This document shows, one piece after another, positions 17,089 through 19,645 of a stretch of DNA of 64,000 nucleotides (position 1 is its first letter; each line of letters begins with the position of its first letter). The DNA comes from Verrucomicrobiota bacterium (GTDB lineage Bacteria; Verrucomicrobiota; Verrucomicrobiia; Opitutales; UBA953), in contig BGOK01000010.1 of the NCBI GenBank assembly GCA_003569205.1, forward strand, positions 1 through 64,000, written 5' to 3'. A model generated the notes under the pieces. That model was not told the DNA's origin. It made no database searches and saw only the letters and a list, made by a program, of their open reading frames with translations. The translations under genes and the position numbers were made by a program.

Positions 17089-18192
17089 ATGGTAGTAACT
17101 TCCATGCCGACTTATTCCGAATTGGCCAATCGGCCCGTCCTGTCGCAACCCGTCTATGAAGCCGGCCGCCCCATTGAGGTCGTCGCCCGCGAGTTCGGCT
17201 TAGACCCGGCTTCGGTCATCAAATTAGCCTCGAACGAGAATCCACTGGGGCCATCCCCCAAGGGCTTGGCCGCAGCCCAGAAGGCCTTGCAGGTCTGCCA
17301 CCTCTACCCCGACGGCGGCAGCACTTTCCTTCGCGAGAAATTAGCGGCTCACTGGGCCATGAAGCCCGATAACTTTGTCGTCGGGAATGGCTCGAACGAG
17401 GTGATGATCATGCTCGCCCAAGCCTTTCTCCGCCCAGGCGATGAAGTCGTCTTTGGCTCCCAAGCCTTCATTGTCTACAAGTTAGCCACGATGCTATTTG
17501 GCGCCACCGCGGTCGAGGTGCCGATGCCCGGTTTCCGTCACGACCTCCCAGCCCTGCGGGCGGCCGTGACCGACCGGACGCGCCTTCTTTTCCTCGCCAG
17601 CCCGAACAACCCCACCGGCGGGACGGATGACCCCAAGGAAATCATCGCCCTCGCGCAATCCCTGCCTGACCACGTCATCTTCTGCCTCGACGAAGCCTAC
17701 GCCGAATACCTCGATGCCTCGGCGGACCTCCGTCCGCTCATCGCCTCCGGTCGCAAGGTCGTCGTCTCGCGGACCTTCTCGAAAGCCTATGGCTTAGCGG
17801 GCCTTCGCGTTGGCTACATGATGGGTTCCGCTGAAGTCATCGGCTTACTCAACCGCGTCCGCCAACCTTTTAACGTTAACCTCCCGGCTTTGGCCGCGGC
17901 GGAAGCCGCCCTCGATGACGCGGACTTCGTCCAACGCACGCGTGAAGTTAACGCCACTGGCTTAGCCCAGTTAGCGGCAGGACTCACCGCCTTGGGCTAT
18001 GAATACATCGACGGCAAAGCCAACTTTCTAGCGGCAAAGATACCCGACGCCGACGCGGTCTTCACGCGTCTTCAGAAAGCTGGGGTCATCGTCCGGCCGC
18101 TCCGTGGCTATGGCATGGTCGGCTGGCTTCGGCTCACCGTCGGCACCTCCGCCCAAAACGCTCGCCTCCTCGCGGAGCTTACCCAGCGCTAA
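17089..18192 (+). CDS. hisC: histidinol-phosphate aminotransferase
   Basis: Class I/II PLP aminotransferase of the histidine pathway, 367 residues. KLASNENPLGPSPK, YPDGGSTFLREKLA, FLASPNNPTGG, DEAYAEYLD and RTFSKAYGLAGLRVGY are all present; the Lys of SKAYGL holds PLP. The ATG at 17089 and one at 17104 are both possible; neither has a strong Shine-Dalgarno. hisF is 6 kb away, so the his genes are scattered. The stop lies 1 base before the start of the next gene, so the two are probably co-translated. Confidence 0.93.
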   Translation: MVVTSMPTYSELANRPVLSQPVYEAGRPIEVVAREFGLDPASVIKLASNENPLGPSPKGLAAAQKALQVCHLYPDGGSTFLREKLAAHWAMKPDNFVVGNGSNEVMIMLAQAFLRPGDEVVFGSQAFIVYKLATMLFGATAVEVPMPGFRHDLPALRAAVTDRTRLLFLASPNNPTGGTDDPKEIIALAQSLPDHVIFCLDEAYAEYLDASADLRPLIASGRKVVVSRTFSKAYGLAGLRVGYMMGSAEVIGLLNRVRQPFNVNLPALAAAEAALDDADFVQRTREVNATGLAQLAAGLTALGYEYIDGKANFLAAKIPDADAVFTRLQKAGVIVRPLRGYGMVGWLRLTVGTSAQNARLLAELTQR

Positions 18193-18193
18193 G

Positions 18194-18589
18194 ATGGACT
18201 TCGAAGACGCCGTTCGGCAAGTGCGTGAAAAGGATCAGCGCTATAGCCCGCAAGCCTACGACCTAGTCCGCCTCAGCCTTGACCACGCCCAGAAGCTCAT
18301 CCACGGCGAACCCAAGAAAGGTAAAGCGATGGTCAACCGACACGTCACCGGACCGCAACTGCTCGAAGGCTTCCGCCAGCATGTCATCGAGACCTATGGT
18401 CCCATGTCTTATCAACTGCTTCAGAATTGGGGCCTCAAAAAGACCGACGACGTTGGCAATATCGTGTTCAACATTATCAGCACTGGCCTGTTTGGTCGCT
18501 CCGCAGAGGACAACCTCAAAGACTTCTGCGGCGTCTACGACTTCAAGGAAACCTTCCTGAAGCCTTTCGGCCCCAAAGCGAAGGCCTGA
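18194..18589 (+). CDS. Minf_1886-type conserved protein of Verrucomicrobia/Planctomycetes
   Basis: A 131-residue protein of unknown function, matching a family (Minf_1886 type) known mainly from Verrucomicrobia and Planctomycetes. Visible landmarks are YSPQAYDLVRLSLDHAQK, HVTGPQLLEGFRQH and the central TDDVGNIVFNIISTGLFG. It has no membrane segment or signal peptide and is probably cytoplasmic. It begins 1 base after the hisC stop. It converges with the HAD-DciA gene; their stops abut exactly. Function is not known. Confidence 0.82.
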   Translation: MDFEDAVRQVREKDQRYSPQAYDLVRLSLDHAQKLIHGEPKKGKAMVNRHVTGPQLLEGFRQHVIETYGPMSYQLLQNWGLKKTDDVGNIVFNIISTGLFGRSAEDNLKDFCGVYDFKETFLKPFGPKAKA

Positions 18590-19645
18590 TTAGGCGTTCA
18601 CAAAGGCTAGGCTCTTAACCTCCGTACAGCCCGGCAGGTCGCGGATTTTGGCCAACAGGGCACGCTCGTGAAACCGCAGCTCTGTCTTGATGACGGAGTT
18701 CTCGCACTGGATGACGAGCCGGCCGCCATCGACCATCTTGAGCGGTGCACAGCGCCGAGCTAACTTCAACGGGAGTAGTTCGCTCCAATGGGCGATGATC
18801 ATGTCCTCCGGGACGGGCTTATCGAGCCGCATCTTCTTAAAGGCTTCCCCCATGGCTTCATCCATGGTCTTTAATTCGCGATCAGTCGAACGCCCACGGT
18901 CCTCGGGGACCCCGCGGAGGTTGGCGAGCAGGTTGACGACATGGCGCGAGAACTTCCCCTTGGTCTTGCCTTCGTTGAGCAACGCTTGAATCAGCTTAGG
19001 CACTTCGACGAGCCGTTCCGCGCGGAGGCATTTCTCGGGTGCGTGCCGTCCACCAATAATCACGCCCACGGCGCCGGCATTACGCGGGCCTTCCCCGTCC
19101 TCGACCGGACTATCCCCGACATGCACCAAGGCCGTCAGTGCCACGCCGAGGCTACGGGCCGCATGCGCATAAGCCTTTGCGTCTGGCTTGGCATAGCCCA
19201 TTTCCTCGGAGAGGAAGATGCCGTCAAAATGTCGTGCGAGATCCTTCTGCTCCAATACCCGCCGCATCCGCGAATCAGCATTAGACAAGATGGCCACCTT
19301 GATCCCGAGAAACTTTAGGGCTCCGAGAACGCTGACCATGCCCAGGCAGACCCGCCAAGCCTTAGCGTCCGCAAAGGCGTGCCAGCATTCCTTGAAAACC
19401 GCGTCGGCTTGAGAGCCAGGTAAGTGCGCACCAAAAGTTCGTTCCACCACTTCTCTCCAGAAGACTTCCGCCTTAGCTTGTTTATTGGCCGAACGTAACG
19501 CTGAAGCAAAGGCTACCTCCAACTCAAGGGCATCCACTTTGATGCCATGCTTCTCGGCACAGGCGGAGTAGACCGCTCCCACCGAAGGATGAGGGAAAAG
19601 TACCGTCCCCGCTAAATCAAACGTCACCGCCTTTACACTAGCCAT
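18590..19645 (-). CDS. HAD-family hydrolase fused to DUF721 (DciA-type) domain
   Basis: A 351-residue two-domain protein. Residues 1-220 are HAD subfamily IA: motif I TFDLAGTVLF (D10, but Ala at 12 where the second Asp usually lies), ILSNADSR, K153 of YAKPD, and GDSPVEDGEG (D178, D183). Residues about 231-351 match DUF721, the family that includes the DnaB helicase loader DciA: KFSRHVVNLLANLRGVPEDR, IIAHWSELLPLKLARRCAPL, GGRLVIQCENSVIKTELRF and LLAKIRDLPGC. No stop or alternative frame separates the halves, and no ATG lies at the junction. The ATG at 19645 starts the HAD domain well; a start 51 bases upstream adds only a Pro-rich leader. HAD catalysis may be altered by the missing Asp. Confidence 0.75.
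   Translation of the reverse strand: MASVKAVTFDLAGTVLFPHPSVGAVYSACAEKHGIKVDALELEVAFASALRSANKQAKAEVFWREVVERTFGAHLPGSQADAVFKECWHAFADAKAWRVCLGMVSVLGALKFLGIKVAILSNADSRMRRVLEQKDLARHFDGIFLSEEMGYAKPDAKAYAHAARSLGVALTALVHVGDSPVEDGEGPRNAGAVGVIIGGRHAPEKCLRAERLVEVPKLIQALLNEGKTKGKFSRHVVNLLANLRGVPEDRGRSTDRELKTMDEAMGEAFKKMRLDKPVPEDMIIAHWSELLPLKLARRCAPLKMVDGGRLVIQCENSVIKTELRFHERALLAKIRDLPGCTEVKSLAFVNA

Follow-up and report, generated by a model that had tools for sequence, protein, structure and literature searches.

The frame described here lies in a window of 64,000 nucleotides, the whole stretch of DNA that was analysed, and joins a haloacid dehalogenase-type (HAD) domain to DciA, the commonest bacterial helicase loader. 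The locus raises the question of whether an enzyme and a loader are truly encoded as one protein and, if so, what the HAD domain does there. A preliminary description had read the frame as one gene, had noted a defective HAD motif I, and had proposed that the fusion would couple the loading of the helicase to a metabolite or regulatory switch.

The fused gene and its junction

The gene consists of one uninterrupted frame of 351 aa (Table 1), as previously described, although the strand (minus) had not been given; no internal stop codon was found in this frame (18590-19645). The proposed domain identities were borne out by profile searches: PF00702 (Hydrolase) matched residues 4-191 (E 2.6e-22, 80.6 bits; Pfam cut-off 26.4), and PF05258 (DciA) matched residues 262-347 (E 1.8e-14, 54.2 bits; curated cut-off 24). 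The AlphaFold2 model of the full chain, built on 24 relatives (mean pLDDT 84.6, pTM 0.62), agrees with the two-domain protein anticipated in that description. It contains two well-predicted domains separated by a low-confidence stretch at about residues 226-258 (pLDDT about 47-61 over most of it), and no confident HAD-DciA interface is indicated in it.

Table 1. Positions in the window of the fused gene, its parts and its convergent neighbour.
Feature	Coordinates	Strand	Basis or remarks
Fused HAD-DciA gene	18590..19645	-	Single open frame, 351 aa plus stop; ATG at 19645, stop 18592-18590
HAD domain, residues 1-225, DREG-2/HDHD3-like	18971..19645	-	PF00702, TIGR02252, fit to 3k1z, motif conservation
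Flexible junction, residues 226-258	18872..18970	-	Short linker and N-terminal DciA segment (KFSRHVVNLLANLRGVPEDRGRS); low pLDDT
Complete DciA unit, residues 229-351	18593..18961	-	End-to-end alignment with stand-alone Opitutales DciA; own model matches 7ykm, 8a3v
DUF721/KH-like core of DciA, residues 262-347	18605..18862	-	PF05258 E 1.8e-14
Minf_1886 family protein, convergent neighbour	18191..18589	+	TIGR04138 1.6e-36

The view that no gene boundary had been missed also stands. At no codon from 201 to 257 do more than 8 of the 22 genus members have ATG, GTG or TTG, and a separate DciA translated from an internal start was rejected for lack of a conserved start codon at the junction. HAD and DciA share one frame in all 29 of the family loci that could be read through. 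Compared with its nearest relatives, the junction has changed mainly at third codon positions (7/7, 15/17, 13/16 and 15/18) and mostly silently, with no indels in these comparisons. Because of this conservation and this substitution pattern, an indel that removed a stop at the junction, the error which the preliminary description had wanted excluded, can be considered excluded on comparative grounds. The source MAG is composed of 34 contigs and indels had been suspected in the window, which might suggest that two genes were joined by an assembly error; such an origin is hardly conceivable, since dozens of independent assemblies carry the fusion and the junction changes are indel-free and mostly in third positions. 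Family-wide conservation of the fusion already refutes it.

The stop codons of the fused gene and of the Minf_1886 gene abut, the two genes forming a convergent pair, and this neighbour is not thought to be part of the HAD-DciA system. A second HAD-DciA locus (L002) was present in the same assembly (contig C29:6225-9331), with the same neighbours as the window locus. Over 3.1 kb, its identity is 89-90% with other species of the genus but 70% with the window locus. It was rejected as a paralogue, being closer to other species than to the window locus, and for the same reason contig C29 was probably mis-binned into the source MAG. A plasmid tblastn search with the window protein gave zero matches.

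Distribution and origin of the fusion

Genomes, families and genera are referred to here by anonymous labels (G, f and g numbers). A DciA match was obtained in 67 of the 79 genomes of the taxonomic family to which the window belongs, and the matching frames almost always measure about 300-450 aa. Elsewhere in the order and class, most dciA genes stand alone and have about 120-200 codons. Further loci beyond those read through also carry the one-frame fusion; every one of the five genera has it, the more distant g2, g3 and g5 among them. Among the relatives carrying the fusion, lake-water Opitutae MAGs mostly show 54-98% identity, and gut lineages, Candidatus Spyradosoma for example, about 30%. 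In two incomplete genomes of genus g2 (G003 and G004) the fusion was not found, even with a genus-specific profile, an absence that may reflect loss, strong divergence or missing sequence. Altogether, these comparisons indicate that the fusion is real, old and common to the whole family. Separate genes in close relatives had been named as the observation that would speak against a single gene; all family loci examined are fused, and separate genes occur only outside the family, as the ancestral state.

In sister families of the Opitutales (f5, f10, f78, f85 and f87), a separate gene directly upstream of dciA, on the same strand, encodes a HAD of the same kind. In two genomes (G536 and G454), the HAD gene ends and dciA begins within a shared ATGA; G461 has 9 nt between the two open frames, and in G288 a single TAA separates two genes that are in the same frame. 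These pairs comprise the same two proteins, in the same order and strand as in the window gene, adjacent or overlapping, except that a stop divides them into two genes. Other members of the order either lack the HAD gene or have it elsewhere in the genome, and a scan of 30 class loci outside the order revealed no HAD beside dciA. The recurrence of this pairing in five other families may mean that the two genes are functionally tied and did not come together by chance.

In both the HAD tree (100/98) and the DciA tree (95/90), the fused proteins cluster as a single group, which suggests that the fusion apparently arose once. As the HAD gene immediately precedes dciA in sister families, and at times overlaps it by ATGA, the fusion came from a tight operon; in the simplest history, a single read-through event joined this closely coupled pair ahead of the diversification of the family. 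Two candidates for additional fusions were rejected: in G493 (family f10; reported open frame 438) a TAA lies between the genes, and no HAD was found in the 394-aa frame of G431 (L074).

The DciA part as the predicted helicase loader

In a fold search with the whole chain, HAD matches filled the results, and a separate model of the DciA part (pLDDT 79, pTM 0.52) was therefore used as a query of its own. The first Foldseek match of this model was 7ykm, the DUF721 domain of Deinococcus DciA (E 1.1e-3, prob 1.00, TM 0.74 by target), and the other leading match was 8a3v, V. cholerae DciA bound to DnaB (E 3.8e-3); with E-values that are modest in both cases, the predicted model has the KH-like DUF721 fold. 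In many stand-alone Opitutales DciA proteins the N-terminus reads MxFSR.. and continues with a segment like NLIANLRGLPEDRGRS; the DciA part of the fused protein opens with the same sequence minus the Met, which indicates that it is a complete loader unit. At the other end, the fused chain finishes 4 residues past the DUF721 match, and stand-alone Opitutales DciA proteins end alike. Unlike the V. cholerae and C. crescentus proteins, the window DciA therefore has no C-terminal DnaB-binding extension after its KH-like core. In C. crescentus, DnaB is bound by this extension (PMC9825169), which is a trait of some DciA groups and not of the whole DciA family (PMC9865707). Since the extension is missing in both fused and unfused Opitutales proteins, the conserved N-terminal helix of the DciA part is likely the DnaB contact. 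A counterpart of the ssDNA-binding Arg106 of Caulobacter could not be assigned in the window protein, its mapping being ambiguous. In genus g4 (Spyradosoma-like; L003, L004 and L008), the fused protein is 395 aa long, and its DciA part has an insertion of ~27 residues just past the conserved NLLALLRGLPEE segment.

Nearly all family genomes contain one DciA, and that copy is the fused gene. DnaB was found in 74 of the 79 genomes, and no DnaC/DnaI loader was found in the family upon inspection of the PF01695 profile matches. The matches are incomplete, falling mostly at positions 95-198, and their frames measure about 460-550 aa. They are read as cross-matches to DnaA-like AAA+ proteins; the exceptions are an IstB-like protein (IS21-type) in G007 and a partial match in G011. 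DnaC/DnaI was consequently rejected as the loader of this family. DciA and DnaC/DnaI replace each other (PMC5109545), and the family has DnaB without a domesticated DnaC/DnaI. From this rule, the single DciA and the presence of DnaB without a detected DnaC/DnaI, the fused protein is most likely the replicative helicase loader. In its PF05258 match, KH-like fold, single copy and DnaB/DnaC context it resembles known DciA proteins, from which it differs in that DciA is here the C-terminal part, behind an N-terminal HAD.

Close pairs of genus g1 gave dN/dS values of about 0.02-0.1 for the HAD part and about 0.005-0.06 for the DciA part, which points to purifying selection on both domains. These values bear on the idea that DciA might be a relic in a protein that is mainly an enzyme, with DnaB loaded by something else. 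Some DciA matches in genus g2 are indeed weak, and G003 and G004 gave none. Nevertheless, we regard a relic as very improbable, because DciA is under the stronger constraint of the two halves and persists in species where the enzyme has decayed (see below), and because it is the only DciA in a family where DnaC/DnaI was not found.

The HAD part and its relation to loading

The N-terminal part has an intact Rossmannoid HAD fold with a C1-type cap, as judged from the PF00702 match and the fit to human HDHD3 (3k1z), the closest structure to the modelled domain (Z 25.4, rmsd 2.9, 222 residues). The best NCBIfam model was TIGR02252 (DREG-2; 7.2e-41), although the window protein, at 140.2 bits, scores below the curated cut-off of 155.2; unfused relatives in G461 (157.4) and G463 (164.8) exceed it. 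The motif positions are the D10 nucleophile, A12, T14, S121, K153, D178 and D183, and include the motif I Asp (D10), the motif II Ser/Thr (S121), the motif III Lys (K153) and the motif IV acidic residues (D178, D183). The 24 aligned fused proteins show no variation at D10, S121, K153 or D183 and almost none at D178. Motif I (FDLAGT) keeps D10 and has A12 in place of the second Asp, as noted in the preliminary description. The second Asp of motif I is the general acid/base in HAD phosphatases, so phosphatase activity is not to be assumed for the window protein. Position 12 is A, S or T in the 24 fused proteins, and A, T, G or F in unfused HADs of the order, with V also among relatives; in HDHD3, whose motif I is DVKDT, it is K. 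Since unfused HADs and HDHD3 also have no second Asp, its loss is best seen as a trait of the HAD subfamily that is older than the fusion and not linked to it. The DREG-2/HDHD3 subfamily is thus the best profile and structural match and shares this feature, the window HAD differing from it in its fusion to DciA and its score below the TIGR02252 cut-off.

Genus g2 contains species with an intact HAD (G006, G007 and G009) and four with a decayed one: L184 (G008), L185 (G005), L186 (G002) and L211 (G001). The nucleophile D10 is replaced by G in G008 and by N in G005 and G002, with the cap deleted and the motif IV GD broken; in G001, motif I is unrecognisable, and the cap and motif IV are also lost. 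None of the four has lost the fusion to DciA, and each retains the C-terminal half of its HAD core (LHVG..L..D.NAALAAG.RA.WL.P), although the other catalytic motifs are gone as well. The loss of nucleophile and cap in four species that kept the fusion and DciA indicates that HAD chemistry is not needed for the predicted loading, HAD catalysis being, on these sequences, dispensable for whatever DciA does.

This dispensability is evidence against the metabolic switch proposed earlier. A HAD that binds or hydrolyses a phosphorylated metabolite or nucleotide, and thereby changes the activity of the attached loader, would fit the recurrent HAD-dciA adjacency and the one-chain fusion, the invariance of D10, S121, K153 and D183, and the strong constraint on the HAD in genus g1. 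We nonetheless consider such a sensor quite unlikely: the catalytic site is lost in four species with the fusion, the second Asp is absent even in unfused relatives and so is not linked to the fusion, and no contact between the domains is predicted with confidence. A regulatory switch is therefore a possible but disfavoured reading of the locus.

On the other hand, the conserved C-terminal core in the decayed species is contrary to what is expected of a pure passenger. It could mean that the HAD core is a non-catalytic partner in loading, which binds DnaB, DnaA or SSB, or stabilises or positions DciA, replacing the varied DciA extensions. Retention of the core in four g2 species after loss of nucleophile and cap, a DciA part that ends at the KH-like domain without the Caulobacter-type extension, and the variable N-terminal extensions of DciA proteins, which matter for loading (PMC12547741), are all in line with this role. 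However, the linker is of low confidence, the model indicates no confident interface, and sister families possess stand-alone, HAD-free DciA proteins with the same N-terminal helix, which makes a partner domain rather unlikely. We give a similarly low likelihood to the broader proposal of the HAD as a working part of the loader, acting as a sensor of phosphorylated compounds in most species and as a pseudoenzyme scaffold that positions DciA on DnaB in one genus. If true, the start of replication would be linked to, or built from, a metabolic enzyme.

The explanation that we favour, with some reserve, is that the loader of the family is a DciA placed C-terminally in a chain that starts with a DREG-2/HDHD3-type HAD, the HAD being a passenger whose chemistry lies outside loading. 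The DciA half would carry out loading through its KH-like domain, with inferred contacts to single-stranded DNA and DnaB, whereas the HAD would fold independently on a flexible tether. In most species the HAD would keep a small-molecule hydrolase or binding role of its own. As the essential gene now starts with it, this passenger would no longer be cleanly losable. The recurrent HAD-dciA pairing and the purifying selection on the HAD in genus g1, which shows that it does something there, count against a mere passenger.

In the open-access library that was searched, which lacks the principal survey on the diversity of DciA (Blaine et al. 2022), no paper mentions both DciA and haloacid dehalogenase. 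An enzyme fused to DciA would thus be a new domain architecture of a known loader, with no earlier report found in that literature. Since evolution has produced both the fusion and the inactivation of the HAD, a comparison of natural variants with intact and dead HADs could show if loading is influenced by an N-terminal partner. G006, whose HAD is intact, is placed with weak support among the decayed species of the DciA tree, so that decay of the HAD may have occurred more than once.
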